Below are positions 3,866 through 25,815 of a stretch of DNA of 64,000 bases, piece after piece; position 1 is the stretch's first letter, and each line of letters starts with the position of its first letter. The position numbers were made by a program, and so were the translations under genes. The notes beneath the pieces were generated by a model. It made no database searches and was not told the origin of the DNA. It saw only the letters and a list, made by a program, of their open reading frames with translations. This DNA is from Nitrososphaerales archaeon (GTDB lineage Archaea > Thermoproteota > Nitrososphaeria > Nitrososphaerales > Gagatemarchaeaceae), in assembly GCA_032906765.1 (NCBI GenBank), contig JAJTZB010000004.1:62001-126000 (forward strand), given 5' to 3'.

Positions 3866-6061
3866 CTATCTGCCCCTCCAACGAGACATACGGTACCGCG
3901 AATCCCTAAGCAGGCGCGAGGAATTAACCGAGACTAGCACATCCGGCACTGATTGAGCAGCGGCTGCCAGAACAGGAGTAAAAATGCCTACCGAAGCAAG
4001 ACCCATGTCTATGGCGTCCCACACAATGCCTATGACGACATTTTGCTTTATCGTGCCATACGTTCGCCGGCCGATCCTAATGGCCTGCGGAACCATTCGC
4101 CAATCATCGCGCATGAGGGCAACGTGGGCTGCTTCGATTGCAACGTCAGTGCCAGCCTTCCCCATGGCCATGCCCACATCCGCTTGGGCAAGAGCAGGTG
4201 CGTCATTGATTCCGTCACCGATCATGAGAACTCGATGACCTTCCAGTTGTAATTTCTTCACCTCAGCGATCTTGTCTTCCGGTTGCAGATTTGCTCTAAA
4301 TTCCTTAATCTCTAGCCTTCTAGCTACCGCAGAAGCAATCCTTTCGTTATCCCCTGTAAGAAGAATAGTCCTCTTGACTCCGAGTTTCGCAAGCTCCCTG
4401 AAAGAGTCTGGAACTTCTTCTCTGAGTACATCTGCAACGGCAATTAGCGCAATTGGCTCCCGTTCCCTCAGCAAATAGAGAACCGTGCTACCTTCTGTTT
4501 CGAGTCTTTCAGCTTCCCGTACAACATCTTCAGGAATCTGAATACCTCTTTCATACGCGAGTTTGAGGTTACCGATCGAGTAGATTTCTCCCTTCACTAC
4601 ACTTACGACTCCTCTTCCGACGGCTGTTTCAAAATTATCGGGTTCGACGAGGTTTATTCCGCTCTCCATCGCTTTCCGAACAATCGCTGATGCTAGCGGG
4701 TGTTCCGAGTATCTTTCGATAGACGCTGAGAGGCCAAGAATCTCCCTTTCTGTTAGACTCCCTAATGGGATTATGCCGCTAACCTGAGGTAGCCCGCTCG
4801 TTAGTGTCCCCGTCTTGTCCACGACTACCGTGTCGATCTTAGCCAGATTCTCGAGGTAGAGACCGCCCTTAATCAGAAGACCATTCCTTGCTGATGCGCC
4901 CATGCTAGCTACTACGGAGAGGGGCGTAGCTAATCCAACTGCACATGGACACGCTGCTACCAGCACTGCGATTGCGAAAACTACGTTGCGACTTACTAGG
5001 AATGTGAGCGCGGAAAATGCTATTACTGCAGGCAGGTAATATTTAGTGTACCTATCCGCGAACTTTTGCGCTTTTGATTTTGAGGAGCTTGCATCCTCGA
5101 CGAGCTGGACAATCTTTCCAAAGGTCGTATCTTTGCCGACTCTTTCCACCTCCATCTTTATCATTCCTGCCTGGTTGAGTGTTGCAGCGAAAACAAAATC
5201 GCCAACTTGCTTCTCGACAGGAATAGATTCACCGGTGATAGCGGCTTGGTCTACGACGTTATGCCCACTAATTACCCTCCCGTCTACCGGAACCTTTTGG
5301 CCGGGACGGACGATTACAATTTCGCCCACATCGATCTTGTCTATCGGAACAGAAAGTTCTTTTCCTTCTCGTACCACAACAGCTGTCTTCGGAGAGAGTT
5401 TGATGAGCTCCTTTACAGCTTTCCGAGATCGTTCGACCGTGAAATTCTCCATGTAGTGCGCGATTGTCATAAAGAAGACAATGAGGAGGGAAGAGGTGAA
5501 TTGACCTATAGCAGCAGCTCCCAGTATCCCCACGGTCATCATGGTGTCTACGTTGATGGTCCTTTGCCAAAGACCGATAGCCGCTCTCTTGAAAATTGGG
5601 TAGCCCCCGATAGCGATTCCGAGTAAGAGGATCGGAACTGGTATGATCTGGAAGGCAGATTCGATGAAACCGAGCCGCTCTCCAAAGATTTCAACAAGTG
5701 CAATAACTGAGATTGCACTCAGAAACAATAAACGGATATTGTTGCCAAAGCTAGCTCGTGGCTTTACTGCCGCTTCTTCTAGAGCCGAAGTAGTAGGTGT
5801 CGCGTTGTATCCTAAGCGCCGGACGGCGTCAACAAGCTCGCTTGCTTGAATCTTTTTCGGATCGTAGGCAATTCTTGCTTTCTCGGCTTGCGTAAAGAGC
5901 TCGACTGCATGAACGCCCTGTTTCTTTTTGAGAGTCTTTTCCACATTCTGAGAGCATTCCAAGCAGCATAGTCCTTGAACTTGCAAGTCCAAAACTTCAC
6001 TCGGTTGTTGTTGTTCTCCTCCTTGATGTTGCTGCTGGGCGGACAAGCTTGCTATCGTCAC
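3866..6061 (-). CDS. Heavy-metal-translocating P1B-type ATPase
   Basis: This is a full-length exporter of 731 residues. It has an N-terminal heavy-metal-associated domain with GLCCLEC (about 30-36), then transmembrane helices, TGES in the actuator domain, CPC in the metal-binding helix (about 369-371), the phosphorylation site DKTGT (about 415), the HP motif in YSEHPLASA and GDGIND (about 616). CPC with the YN/MxxSS motifs of typical Cu+ pumps not evident (the C-terminal helices read [14 protein letters not shown] and VSVNSSRLL) leaves Cu, Zn, Cd or Co open. It starts with GTG overlapping the upstream ArsR stop (GTGA, 6058-6061), so it is in an ArsR-controlled operon and presumably removes excess metal from the cytoplasm. 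Confidence 0.93.
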
Positions 6062-19743: not shown

Positions 19744-19778
19744 CCCATTGAACGCGAATCATCTCAAGAGCGGGGCAT

Positions 19779-19851
19779 CCGTATAGACCGTGAAAATGGT
19801 GCAAAAAACACACTAGGAGGGAGAGTATTATTCAGCGGCAACTCTCTACGG
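19779..19851 (+). repeat. ~73-nt dispersed repeat, copy 1
   Basis: It begins CCGTATAGACC and ends TCTACGG, with an AAAAAACACACTAGG core. Terminal CCGTA/TACGG are inverted repeats. It shares ends, core and length with the copy at 20021. Confidence 0.65.
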
Positions 19852-19908
19852 CTGACCGTGCTCTTCAGAAGGCCTAATGGACATCGGTGTCAATGGCGCA
19901 GGAAGCGG

Positions 19909-19981: not shown

Positions 19982-20020
19982 CCGTCCCTGTTTAACCAAC
20001 AATCATGCAATCGCAGCAAT

Positions 20021-20093
20021 CCGTATAGACCCAGAAATCGGTCCAAAAAAAACACAATGGGGGAGGCATTAATACAGCCGCAATCATCTACGG
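20021..20093 (+). repeat. ~73-nt dispersed repeat, copy 3
   Basis: It begins CCGTATAGACC (ATCCGTA with one more flank), has the core CAAAAAAAACACAATGG and CAGCCGC, and ends TCTACGG(AT). ATCCGTA at 20019 and TACGGAT ending at 20095 make a 7-bp inverted repeat. A GACC...GGTC mini-hairpin follows the left end. Confidence 0.65.
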
Positions 20094-20109
20094 ATGCCCC
20101 AGTCAGCCT

Positions 20110-20736
20110 CTATCTTACGAACGCATCTTGGTCGATGTTACAGTATTGACAGTGAAGGCAGAACACGCCGACGGGCCCGAGCCTCATTTGGCGGGCTCCT
20201 GGCCCCTGACCCTCACTGGCGACCGACACCAGCCTCTGGGCGTACAAGGAAACCAGACTTTCCATTACGACACCCTGCTTCAGCTCGGCTGGGCATGGAC
20301 CCAGGTGCTTCGACTTCCAGGGTCTGGCCCTCAGAGCGTCGATGGTCAGCGCAGTGCGGTCAATCGTCTCCCCTATGACCACCTCTCTCGATTTGAGATA
20401 TCCGAGGACCATCTCGACCTCGGAGCTGAAGACGTGTGGGACTCGGTTCCGCCTACGTCTGAGTTCCGTCAGCAGTTCGGCCGTAACTAGGGGGCCCGTC
20501 CTCAGGGCGTCGACAACGCTCGTTGCCAGCGCCGAAGGCAAGTTGGGCGGGACAGACGCAAGTCTGTAGCGAGGTAGGATGACGTGATTCAACGAATCGC
20601 ATTCTGTGCAGGTCCAGAAGATCTGGAACCAACTCGAGATACCGGCCGACTCGGTCTTCACGTAGAGCGTCCTGTGGTGCGTCATCGTTCCACAATTCGG
20701 ACAGAGCCTCGTCCTAAGCCCTCGAAGCTTGGTCAC
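20110..20736 (-). CDS. Zinc-ribbon / winged-helix-like hypothetical protein
   Basis: This 208-residue protein has an N-terminal ribbon (RLCPNCGTMTHHRTLYVKT ... FWTCTECDSLNHVILP, about 11-57). A helical segment follows that could be a winged helix (LATSVVDALRTGPLVTAELL, HVFSSEVEMVLGYLKSREVV). A C-terminal Cys/His group (FCLHCQYCN) may add a second metal site. No family is recognised. The layout suggests a DNA-binding regulator. The gene lies between the three 73-nt repeats and the iteron array. Confidence 0.6.
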   Translation of the reverse strand: MTKLRGLRTRLCPNCGTMTHHRTLYVKTESAGISSWFQIFWTCTECDSLNHVILPRYRLASVPPNLPSALATSVVDALRTGPLVTAELLTELRRRRNRVPHVFSSEVEMVLGYLKSREVVIGETIDRTALTIDALRARPWKSKHLGPCPAELKQGVVMESLVSLYAQRLVSVASEGQGPGARQMRLGPVGVFCLHCQYCNIDQDAFVR

Positions 20737-20898
20737 AGAATCCTTAGCTTGCGGATGTTATAACGCACCGAGTGCGCGGCTTCTGATTCGGGGCATCGTC
20801 CCGATGACACTGTCGTTCAGGCATGGCCGAAGCTATCGCTTCTTGGACGGCACGCTCCTACTGGAACGGACCTCTGTTTTTCGGTGGGGGGGTTGGTT

Positions 20899-20914
20899 TG
20901 CTAATGAATTAGCA
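20899..20914. promoter_or_regulatory. Perfect palindrome TGCTAAT-GA-ATTAGCA
   Basis: The 7-bp arms are perfectly complementary around a 2-bp centre. It lies about 20 bp upstream of a TATTTAA box and 71 bp upstream of the first iteron, and is a candidate operator or part of an origin/centromere. Confidence 0.6.
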
Positions 20915-20984
20915 CGCTAGGAGTGGGTGGGAGTATTTAACGCGGGACGGACTTGTAGGCGTTCTAACGGGTTTGGGAGCAAGG

Positions 20985-21100
20985 GGGTGACATCCCAGCC
21001 GCAAAGGGTGACATCGCCTGGAGCCAAGGGTGACATCCACCGACGGAAGGGTGACATGCCGCAGGCCACAGGGTGACATCCAGAACCCAAAGGGTGACAT
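20985..21100 (+). repeat. Iteron array, six direct copies of GGGTGACAT at 21/22-bp spacing
   Basis: Exact GGGTGACAT copies start at 20985, 21006, 21028, 21049, 21071 and 21092. Spacings are 21, 22, 21, 22, 21 bp, i.e. two turns of B-DNA, so all sites face the same side of the helix. Most copies are preceded by A/AA and followed by C. Intervening bases are not conserved. Confidence 0.88.
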
Positions 21101-21105
21101 CTGCG

Positions 21106-21229
21106 ATGTCCACTTTGGCCGCTGAAGAAGTCTTGATATGTCCACATTGAAGAGGGCGACAGCTTCGGCATGTCCACTTTGGTGTTGGATGTCCACCTTG
21201 TCGTGTCCACTTTGGCCGCTGATGTCCAC
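21106..21229 (-). repeat. Iteron array, six related copies in opposite orientation (ATGTCCAC, plus-strand reading)
   Basis: Copies start at 21106, 21138, 21170, 21189, 21203 (GTGTCCAC) and 21222. Spacings are 32, 32, 19, 14 and 19 bp. Read on the minus strand the full site is CCAAAGTGGACATC, against CCAAAGGGTGACATC for the first block, so these are related sites in inverse orientation. A 19-bp exact repeat (TGTCCACTTTGGCCGCTGA) occurs at 21107-21125 and 21204-21222. Confidence 0.85.
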
Positions 21230-21507
21230 CTTGGTCAAGAGTCAAGCGTTGAACCTCGGTTCCAGATTCAAGGGTTGACGCTGAAGCCGCCATGACTATC
21301 ACAACCGTTCACCGGGCGCCGTTTGACTAGGCCTTCTCACGCGAATGTCCAAGTTTGCAAGAAGTTGGTGCCAATCAGTAGAGACCAAGACCAATCGTAT
21401 CAGGGTTGCGAGCGGACGAGGGAATCGTCACTTTCGTTCACCTCTCCCGCCGATATCTTGCTTTCGGGCTAGTTGCGTAAAAGGACGGGGGTTTGCGACG
21501 GAGCATC

Positions 21508-22668
21508 ATGACCGCAGCCGAACTGAAGGCGATACCCCTCAGGCTGGTCGAGCCGCACCCGAAGACCGTTGTGAGATTCAGGTACAGGGTCGAGCCGCTG
21601 GCCGCCCTAATCAAGTCTGCTGCCGACGAGGACACCCCCAACGGACAGCTCGAGCCCGGGCGCGTCGTCCCCCGGGGCGACGGGAAGGAGGGCTACTGGG
21701 TCTACATCGGCGTCAAGCGCTACTGCGCCCTGAAGCTTCTCCATGAACAGACCGGGGAAGAGAGGTTCGCGGTGTTCTACGCGTACGTCGACAAGGGCGA
21801 CAACTCCCTCTTGCGGCTGTTCGTCAGGGCGAAGAGCGAGAACGAGGACGAGAAGGGAGAGAGGGAGGGCTTCTCTATCCTGGAGGAGATTTCAGGCATC
21901 GGGAGGATCAATGACTCGATCCGCCCCGGCGAGCTCAGCGTGGACCTGAGACGCCTCTACGACCTCGCGGGCAGGCTGGGCGAGGGGAGGCTCAGGAAGC
22001 TCTACGAGGTGGAGAAGGCCACCGACTTCAGGTTCAGGCTGGGCCACCTCGAAAAGCTCTGCAAAATCGAGGACGAGAGGGAGTTCTGTCTGGCTTCTGC
22101 TTCGACGGCTGGCTTCCGTTTCCGCGAGGACAAGGTGGAGGACGCTGCGAAGGCGAAGGACTCCGCCTACATCTTTCGGTGGTTCAACGACGTCTTTCCC
22201 GAGTATGAGAAGCCAGCAGGTTCCGTCTCCGCTGTGAAAGTAGATCGCGCCAAGGGGCACGAGGAGAAGCTCGTACCCTATGAGGAGGGAGTCTTCATCG
22301 TGCGGTGTCCTGCGTGTGGGGCAGGGAACCTGATGGAGCTTCACATGGAGGCGGAGGCCACGCGGCTCCCGATCGAACCAGGCGGGGAGGAGTTCACCAC
22401 GACGCCCGAGGCCCTCGTCTGGTTCAGCGCTGGCTGCCACCACTGCGCCAAGGCATTCTACACCTTCGTCGAGCCGCTGGACAAGAAGAGGTACGCGGTC
22501 GGAGGGTCGCTCTCGGTAAAGCTCATGAAGCCGAAGGAGACCGCTGAACTGTTCGACCTAGGGGTGGCCTTCGCCGAGGAGAACGTTTGGCAGAAGATCA
22601 TGGACCAAAAGGTCGTGGGCCCGTTGAGCCTCCCACAGGGAAGGGGGAAGAAGGCGCGGAAGGTGTGA
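21508..22668 (+). CDS. ParB-like protein fused to a C-terminal zinc ribbon
   Basis: From ATG 21508, behind GGAG, the product is 386 residues. The N-terminus follows the ParB/Srx-like plan: IPLRLVEPHPKTVVRFRYRV, LAALIKSAADEDTPNGQLEP, GYWVYIGVKRYCALKLLHEQ (in place of the usual VxGxRRxxA). A helical middle contains ILEEISGIGRINDSI and LRRLYDLAGRLGEGRLRKLY. A C-terminal domain carries FIVRCPACGAGNLMEL and AGCHHCAKAFYTF, two CxxC pairs. ParB proteins bind centromere-like sites to segregate plasmids or chromosomes; some related proteins are regulators or nucleases. It sits right after the iteron array and 7 bp before a winged-helix gene. No ParA gene is in the window. The ParB assignment is by pattern and context. 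Confidence 0.6.
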   Translation: MTAAELKAIPLRLVEPHPKTVVRFRYRVEPLAALIKSAADEDTPNGQLEPGRVVPRGDGKEGYWVYIGVKRYCALKLLHEQTGEERFAVFYAYVDKGDNSLLRLFVRAKSENEDEKGEREGFSILEEISGIGRINDSIRPGELSVDLRRLYDLAGRLGEGRLRKLYEVEKATDFRFRLGHLEKLCKIEDEREFCLASASTAGFRFREDKVEDAAKAKDSAYIFRWFNDVFPEYEKPAGSVSAVKVDRAKGHEEKLVPYEEGVFIVRCPACGAGNLMELHMEAEATRLPIEPGGEEFTTTPEALVWFSAGCHHCAKAFYTFVEPLDKKRYAVGGSLSVKLMKPKETAELFDLGVAFAEENVWQKIMDQKVVGPLSLPQGRGKKARKV

Positions 22669-24217: not shown

Positions 24218-24463
24218 ATGGCCCGAACCCGGCCGTTAAGAGGCGAGGGCCGCCATGTTGCCATGCAAGTCCCGCGCACTAGCGAAGCAGATAGCGAAAC
24301 CATTTCGCTTTCAAGGGTCAAGGACGCGGCCAGGCGTCTGCTACCACCCGGCAGCACCGCCAGGAGCGTCATCCTTGCCGAGAAGGATGTCCTCCCCGCA
24401 TCAGAGGCCCTCGCCAAGTTCGAAGTCTTCGACAGGCTACTCCGCTCTGAGCTGGGGCCTTGA
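24218..24463 (+). CDS. Hypothetical small protein convergent with the integrase
   Basis: This ORF of 81 residues (66 from ATG 24263, MQVPRTSEADSETISLSRVK) has a globular-looking C-terminus: DAARRLLPPGSTARSVILAE, KDVLPASEALAKFEVFDRLL. It overlaps the last 27 bp of the convergent integrase gene. No family is recognised. The pattern of a short Ser/Thr-rich head and a helical tail is compatible with a small element-encoded accessory or antitoxin-like protein, but nothing shows this. Confidence 0.5.
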   Translation: MARTRPLRGEGRHVAMQVPRTSEADSETISLSRVKDAARRLLPPGSTARSVILAEKDVLPASEALAKFEVFDRLLRSELGP

Positions 24464-25815
24464 CCCCGCCAGCCTCATGATCACGCTGCCGTCGGGGAGC
24501 TGCGCGACGTACTCCCAGCCCTCCTCTACCATCGCCCTGACCTCCCCAGCCGGGACGACCTTCTGGCGGCTGAGCGCCTTCCTGTTGAGGGCCTCCACGA
24601 ACTGCTCCGTAGTCAGCCCCGACAGGTCACCCATCTGGCCCAGCTCTTCCTCGGAGTACCTCGTCGCCAGCATCTCCCTCCTGATTGCCCCAAGCACCTC
24701 CCCCCTGCTGAAAGAAGGAGTGGCCGAGAAGTCCAACTTCGCGTACTCCTTCCTCAGCCACTCCACCTTGCTCCTGTCGTAGTAGTTCTCCTGGGCCCCG
24801 GGGAGTATGTGCCCCATCAGGAACTCCTGCGTCTTGGTGTCCAGCCTCCTCCCGTCGCTGTTCTCCTCCCGCAGGACGCTCTCGAAGGCCTTTCGCAGGC
24901 AGTGGGGGTGGACGTCGGCCCATCTTTCTATCCCCGCCCGCAGCGCCGCCTCCTTGACGATCCGCTCCATCGTCGACCTTCCCATCGGCCCGCGATTCTC
25001 CCGTATGGGTCGGTTGTGCTTCCACCCGTTGAAGAGGACGTCCCCGTCCGTCAGCTTCCCAGCCTGCGCCTGGACCTCGGCGAGGTAGACCTTCAGCTCA
25101 TCCGCCGCCTCCTTCGTGATGAACGTGTAGTACGGGACCGCTCCCTTGCAGGCGTCCGGCACCACCTTCTTCATCTCCGGGTAGACGGGGACCTTCAAGG
25201 GGATCGTCCCGCCCTCCAGCTCCTCCCTGACGTCCACGTACCGCAGTCCCCTGAGCGTGCCCTGGCGAAGCCCCGACGCGTAGAGGAAGAGGATCACCGC
25301 CCTGTCCCGCAGGTTGTTCACCCTGCCCGCGTTCGCCATCCTGTAGATCTCCTCCCTCGACGGGACGTAGTCTGACATCTCGATGGCCTTTCTGGCAGGG
25401 GAGAAGAAGCCCCGGATTTGGATGACTCCCTTGTCGCCCCCGTCAAACCCGTTGGACCGCAGGAAGGCGCCCAGCGCCGCCCTCGCCAGGTTCCCCGTCT
25501 CCCCGCTTCTCCTGCCCTTCTCGTCCACGAAGTCCTGCACGCTCTCCCTCAGCTCGTGCCTCTCCATCTCCAGCACCTCGTCGGGGTTCTTCCCCACCTT
25601 TCTGCAGAAGCGGTAGAGCCAGCTCAGGTAGGCCTCCCTGCTCCCTTCGCTCTTGATTCGCCTTGCGAGGTGGTTCAGCAGCTTCTGGACGCTGCGGTAC
25701 TCGCTCTTCCATCCCTCCGCCTTCAGGTATGTCTCGTAGTCCCTGACGCCCCGTGCGAAGAAGCCGTGGGGCGAGCGTCTTACTGGCGTGTGTGGTCAAA
25801 CCTCCCTGATATCAT
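24437..25815 (-). CDS. Tyrosine recombinase/integrase, 5' end frameshifted in a CA repeat
   Basis: The catalytic domain is complete: ASGLRQGTLRGLRYVDVRE (Arg I), HPHCLRKAFESVL (His-x-x-Arg), FLMGHILPGAQENYYDRS (His and the nucleophilic Tyr). A core-binding domain with NHLARRIKSEGSREAYLSWL precedes it. The uninterrupted frame has its first usable start at GTG 25597. A continuous N-terminus beginning MISGRFDHT at ATG 25815 joins PVRRSPHGFFARGV only if two bases are removed from the CACACA run at 25788-25794. So full-length protein (about 458 residues) needs a frameshift, or a shortened protein is made. Extended C-terminal sequence (GEVLGAIRREMLATRYSEEE) is unusual for XerC/D. Integrases of this kind insert plasmids or viruses into chromosomes. 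Confidence 0.8.

Follow-up and report, generated by a model that had tools for sequence, protein, structure and literature searches.

How archaeal conjugative elements choose and prepare their DNA is an open question (PMC9905601, PMC6563490), and no relaxase is known from archaeal ICEs (PMC6563490, PMC9905601). The published hallmark of the thaumarchaeal ICEs is the coupling of TFIIB to ParB (PMC6563490). Like the array-bearing relatives described below, they carry a VirD4/TraG ATPase, TFIIB beside a ParB-like protein, pilus-type secretion genes and a tyrosine recombinase, again with no known relaxase; a term search of the text of that paper found mention of neither an iteron array nor an oriT, nor of a winged helix fused to the ATPase. 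Two bacterial systems offer further points of comparison. In Streptomyces, TraB uses a C-terminal HTH to recognise clt repeats of 8 bp (PMC5365140), and the oriT-only mobilizable elements known as iOriT hitchers are integrase islands that carry cis-acting sites and no transfer machinery (PMC11389934). The same review traces the slow identification of archaeal hitch-hikers to ignorance of which proteins serve as relaxases in archaea (PMC11389934).

The window analysed here, a 64,000-nucleotide stretch of the genome of a soil archaeon of the Nitrososphaerales, shares a tyrosine recombinase with the thaumarchaeal ICEs but has neither their transfer genes nor a TFB gene. Motif searches reveal two adjoining arrays of repeats. 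Array A (20985–21100, plus strand) consists of six exact copies of GGGTGACAT starting at 20985, 21006, 21028, 21049, 21071 and 21092, that is at spacings of 21/22/21/22/21 bp. The 64 kb window has no copy outside the array, and none of 100 shuffled windows reached six. Similarly, the heptamer GGGTGAC occurs six times in the 756-bp intergenic region, where the commonest 7-mer reached at most five copies in 1000 dinucleotide shuffles. Paired copies of GGGTGACAT were not seen elsewhere in the same 1.77 Mb genome, nor was the phased pair pattern with this core seen in 45 other genomes of the family. A preliminary description of this DNA had reported six regularly spaced copies forming an iteron-type array phased on one face of the DNA, and for array A both statements are borne out. 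It had also reported six related sites facing the opposite way. These form array B (21107–21229, minus strand), with TGTCCAC (GTGGACA on the minus strand) starting at 21107, 21139, 21171, 21190, 21204 and 21223; the orientation and number are as described, but only five sites match GTGGACAT exactly, and at 21204 the sequence is GTGGACAC. Nor does the two-turn spacing extend to this second set, where spacing comparison gives 32/32/19/14/19 bp, defining registers of 32–33 and 19 bp.

Two other kinds of repeat were considered and rejected. Array A is not coding sequence of the kind seen in phages, since the 21/22 alternation shifts the reading frame and the plus-strand repeat contains TGA. Transposon ends with multiple repeats, as in IS21 or Tn7-like elements, are not supported either: no transposase was found among the scanned adjacent genes, and the arrays track ICE genes. 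Plasmid records gave no match, and phage records gave short matches at chance level only.

Left of array A, the window carries a 208-aa zinc-ribbon gene (20110–20736, minus strand), defined from open reading frames with blastp and tblastn. In full elements its homologues (G006_055, G016_105 and G042_017) come last in the TFB operon of the ICE. Another homologue adjoins the array in G020:C82, where a long array of mixed cores (L126/L139) separates it from a gene that looks, by eye, to be of GHKL/topoisomerase VI B type. Alignment of eight loci (see below) brings out several conserved elements between this gene and array A. At 20829–20872 are two leader hairpins (GAAGC-TAT-CGCTTC and GGCACGCTCC..GGAACGGACC), followed by a run of T when read rightward; they were called by eye, the RNAalifold structure being mixed and its covariation term positive, and comparison of the leader with Rfam matched no known RNA family. 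The palindrome TGCTAATGAATTAGCA at 20899–20914, whose position is kept in the eight loci, had been called perfect but is not, since its 7-bp arms flank a non-complementary GA. The box GTATTTAACG (20933–20942, minus strand; CGTTAAATAC read leftward), also kept in the eight loci, is a probable promoter element of the 208-aa gene and TFB operon. Thus the TATTTAA box noted previously in front of the array is present, at 20934–20940, but it most likely reads leftward (CGTTAAATA) and serves as the TFB-operon promoter at the 208-aa gene rather than as a promoter of the array. The same CGTTAAATAC box is also found upstream of a 160-aa gene of the ICE (L142:3175), and the TFB that the ICE itself encodes may be what reads it at both places. 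Further left, an 81-nt sequence is directly repeated at window positions 19777–19857 and 20019–20099; the two copies, 74% identical, include an A-rich CAAAAAA..ACACA stretch, and a comparable stretch occurs upstream of array A in L294.

Searching with the leader retrieved eight loci in seven genomes, each with a related array behind the leader. The palindrome, the hairpins and a box of GTATTTAACG type are common to all eight; after these the repeat core differs, being GGTGACAT, GTGGACA, CGCCA or TGYCA. Depending on the locus, tens to over 200 bp separate the box from the array, with about 45 bp to the first repeat in the window. While the core varies by element, the spacings keep close to multiples of 10.7 bp. 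Of the 87 spacings counted over all archaeal arrays, 65 measure 20–23 bp and the others favour other helical multiples (~10.7 bp; P=0.0075). At six of the eight loci the neighbourhood read contains a TFB gene, a large protein encoded convergently on the right, or both. Gene maps of G006, G016 and G042 show a T2SSE-type ATPase and a TadC-like membrane protein (both Pfam matches), pilin-like genes, the ParB cassette and the large ATPase; in such full elements the array has the TFB operon on one side and, on the other, the gene or genes for a coupling ATPase of VirD4/TraG type. Judged by sequence, then, the window array is a member of a family of arrays in integrated elements of Gagatemarchaeaceae (thaumarchaeal group 1.1c), whose constant neighbours are the coupling ATPase that ends in a winged helix, the promoter of the TFB operon, or both.

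The large protein is assigned to the coupling ATPases of VirD4/TraG type, with a winged helix at its C-terminal end, from matches to the Pfam families TraG-D_C (2e-6), T4SS-DNA_transf (3e-6) and HerA (5e-6), to the VirD4-like CD1115 family of NCBIfam (5e-9) and, among structures, to HerA/FtsK together with a C-terminal winged helix. A further segment may be nuclease-like, conserved D/E motifs being the sole hint; Pfam gave no support there for a restriction-like nuclease, and that assignment was rejected. All seven of the closest ATPase genes have the array directly 3′ of the gene. In a second clade (G013:C57, G033:C66), TTGGCAACC arrays with 21/22 bp spacing lie between a divergent TFB operon and the 344-aa/ATPase genes, and for a more distant ATPase (order level; L206, G118) eight GGTACCA repeats are found 250–395 bp past the stop codon. 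An array downstream of a winged-helix ATPase is not a universal rule, since the flanks read for several other such genes (G013:C96, C97 and C92, G096, G155) hold no obvious array.

Repeat cores and recognition helices of the ATPases go together: GGTGACAT with SERTVTR/APRQVTR, GTGGACA with SGRQVTR/STRQVTR, CGCCA with SERTMTR and TGGCAACC with GERSVSR/SKRSVSR, a correspondence in which both partners follow phylogeny and independent cases are few. A parallel comes from viruses. Phased pairs of GGGTGACAT occur in 65 viral contigs, by rough estimate far above chance, and in about 43 of the 65 the repeats lie inside a gene with an HTH_36-type N-terminus. These replication-type phage genes share with the archaeal arrays the same 9-bp core, the 21–22 bp phasing and a similar recognition helix (SERTVQR, SERQVQR and once SERQVTR, close to the archaeal SERTVTR and SGRQVTR), but differ in that the array is within coding sequence and no ATPase is fused. 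The similar helices, combined with phased GGGTGACAT repeats in viral HTH_36 genes, point to the winged helix as the probable reader of the sites in the archaeal elements as well.

To the right of the arrays lies the ParB-like gene (21493–22668, plus strand), encoding a protein (P0001) with a ParB NTPase and HTH region and a C-terminal zinc ribbon of four Cys, as judged by profile and structure model. Its designation as ParB-like in the preliminary description proves well founded: a profile of eleven homologues matched ParB structures with E=8e-8, the predicted model (mean pLDDT 70) matched ParB and Noc in Foldseek searches (best E=1e-6), and the GxRR-type and EN motifs of ParB NTP binding are conserved. 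The winged-helix gene also mentioned there (P0002, 22676–23062, plus strand) is indeed present and, by sequence comparison, part of a TFB/ParB/winged-helix cassette. Homologues of the ParB-like protein are found in 14 of 101 genomes, almost all within this family, with no relatives among viral contigs. The usual order in relatives is a divergent TFB-like protein (a zinc-ribbon protein weakly similar to TFIIB), then the ParB-like protein, then the winged helix. In the window the latter two are retained; tblastn found no match to a TFB gene, and the array region occupies its usual place upstream of the ParB-like gene. Since the cassette is 24–40 kb from the array in full elements, the pairing, with the array 260 bp from the ParB-like gene here, is peculiar to the window; the ParB-like gene itself forms part of the TFB-ParB cassette already known from thaumarchaeal ICEs.

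ParB cassettes of ICEs have at least two palindromes of their own right after the winged-helix gene, of element-specific sequence (for example TGTTCAGGGGGTGAACA and TGCTCAAGGGTTGAGCA), which are candidate parS sites or operators. These palindromes with element-specific arms were observed after the winged-helix gene in L026, L028, L029, L030, L032, L033 and L034. In the window, motif search located two parS-like palindrome cores, TCAAGCGTTGA (21242–21252) and TCAAGGGTTGA (21268–21278), 26 bp apart between the array and the ParB-like gene. They are the only instances of TCAA-N3-TTGA in the window and had previously gone unremarked; they have the same core as TGCTCAAGGGTTGAGCA in the ICE cassette of G013:C28, and it is found in islands too. 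The ParB fold and the palindromes near the gene are thus as in ParB/parS systems, from which the locus differs in its non-palindromic iterons and in the TFB and winged-helix partners of the cassette.

Beyond the cassette, the window encodes a 66-aa protein (24263–24463, plus strand), common to the islands G013:C98 and G013:C6 (79% identity by sequence comparison), and a tyrosine recombinase (24437–25597, minus strand; Pfam Phage_integrase, 6e-12) that is 73–74% identical to the integrase of the G013:C98 island. The presence of a tyrosine recombinase in an integrated archaeal element, as proposed earlier, is therefore upheld; neither tRNA or direct-repeat attachment sites nor element ends were found for the window island. 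In G013 one core recurs at nine loci, several of them integrase islands. The noncoding module of these islands begins with a box and an array of one flavour (TTGGCAACATC), continues with palindromes having the core CAACCCTTG or its complement, and ends with a box and an array of a second flavour (TTGGCAACCC). Islands of both G013 and G021 follow this two-array plan, and the stretches read beside their integrases contain no ATPase, TFB or ParB gene. The ingredients of the window, namely box, array A, array B, palindromes and integrase, match the island module. Different palindromes on the CAACCCTTG core, with CTC, CAC or CCC arms, form series in the islands (L330 at 4900–5300, L327 and L331), as if for several ParB or winged-helix specificities.

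The VirD4/TraG-type ATPase of array-bearing relatives is absent from the window but exists in truncated form on another contig of the same genome, in an ICE relic (G000:C1:259593–276548; L195, L027) whose cassette winged-helix gene is disrupted. This ATPase is 88% identical to that of G016 and 64–68% identical to others of the clade; the G016 array, in a check that could have failed, proved to have the same core and the same 32–33/19 bp registers as array B of the window. The resident ATPase is cut at residue 513, before the winged helix, so that the genome has no evident partner protein, and that of array B is apparently missing or outside the assembly. The window would hold a small ICE-derived island carrying two types of site, possibly hitch-hiking.

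What might such arrays do? The explanation that we favour, and to which we give an even chance, is that the array is a cis-acting ICE site, comparable to oriT or clt, which is bound by the winged helix of the ATPase and loads DNA for conjugation. It is preferred because the putative reader domain is fused to a coupling ATPase, because the arrays are positioned among transfer genes and because islands exist with the site alone. In the full ICE, where the TFB operon and the coupling-ATPase gene or genes flank the array, the winged helix at the C-terminus of the ATPase would bind the phased repeats, several ATPase subunits would align along one face of the DNA, and the aligned ATPases would load element DNA for conjugative export. 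The array would then work as clt does for TraB in Streptomyces, and be an archaeal counterpart of oriT. TraB/clt and the ICE relatives, though not the window, have in common a translocase with a C-terminal HTH or winged helix beside short direct repeats; they differ in that the ATPase is of FtsK type in one and VirD4/HerA type in the other, and in that the archaeal case adds a nuclease-like segment and pili and has a reader predicted from sequence. The window island, with two arrays of presumably different specificity, two parS-like palindromes, the ParB-like/winged-helix pair and an integrase, but no ATPase, may be a deletion remnant or a hitch-hiker moved in trans by resident ICEs; it has an integrase and, in the array, a putative transfer site. 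The iOriT hitchers, similar in being integrase islands with cis sites and without transfer machinery, are bacterial, whereas the present islands are archaeal. More tentatively, the arrays may be archaeal transfer origins in general, with the fused ATPase/nuclease-like/winged-helix protein both recognising and processing them and so replacing the relaxosome, satellites hitch-hiking by copying the site, and the window island holding the sites of two elements. An element-specific phased array tied to a winged-helix coupling ATPase would provide a concrete candidate site and protein for archaeal DNA transfer, perhaps the long-missing start signal, carried by small hitch-hiking islands as well, and their association gives a search rule for satellites in genomes. 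The proposal gains its value from the absence of a known archaeal relaxase and of known archaeal hitch-hikers.

Compatible with this loading-site explanation, as far as the origin of the arrays goes, is the somewhat doubtful suggestion that the window locus is now functionless, two ICE array ends having been fused by deletion. The truncated ATPase and disrupted winged-helix gene of the resident ICE are in line with this, as is the window's want of TFB and ATPase genes, but all six cores of array A are intact, the reading frames of the ParB-like, winged-helix and integrase genes are uninterrupted, and the two-array plan is found in G013 and G021 islands too. Less probable is that the array is a multi-site operator controlling the adjacent leftward TFB-operon promoter and, in clade 2, that of the 344-aa/ATPase genes, with a cooperatively bound winged-helix regulator, possibly the ATPase itself, timing transfer-gene expression. 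Consistent with an operator are the box CGTTAAATAC some 45 bp from the first window repeat and conserved in the eight loci, its recurrence before the ICE 160-aa gene and the location of clade 2 arrays between divergent operons. Against it, islands retain two arrays where TFB, ATPase and ParB genes were not found, the box-to-array gap is not constant (tens to over 200 bp), and the clade 1 ATPase gene ends, rather than starts, at the array. A replication origin, with iterons bound by a winged-helix initiator as in phages with GGGTGACAT repeats in an HTH_36 gene, is quite improbable: the 65 viral contigs with phased GGGTGACAT pairs, mostly in HTH_36-type genes, offer parallels that are replication genes, and the islands join array, palindromes and integrase, but no Rep-family gene was found among the scanned genes adjacent to the array, the neighbouring winged helix is fused to a coupling ATPase, ICE arrays are positioned between transfer genes, and the replication genes described for thaumarchaeal ICEs are of various other kinds (PMC6563490). 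Finally, although the ParB-like gene has the ParB fold and lies so close to the array, the preliminary description's reading of the iterons themselves as the centromere of this protein can scarcely be maintained, since relatives of the array occur far from, or without, ParB-like genes, a finding that the description had itself named as refuting it, so that array and ParB do not pair as parS and ParB would, and since ParB cassettes own separate palindromes; a partition locus is accordingly unlikely for the iterons and possible for the two palindromes.

Some further repeats deserve mention. The genome G036 contains two ICE-type ATPases (L151, L150) with arrays of different cores. In G323 (L225), ATCCCCG is repeated in tandem, at 9/9/37 bp, in a stretch lying some 400–510 bp after a VirD4-like gene. 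Among viruses, GTGGACAT arrays are often situated at HTH genes, and in contigs L240–L293 AGTGGACAT arrays often fall within, or next to, HTH genes whose helices are of the EKTIRRW type.
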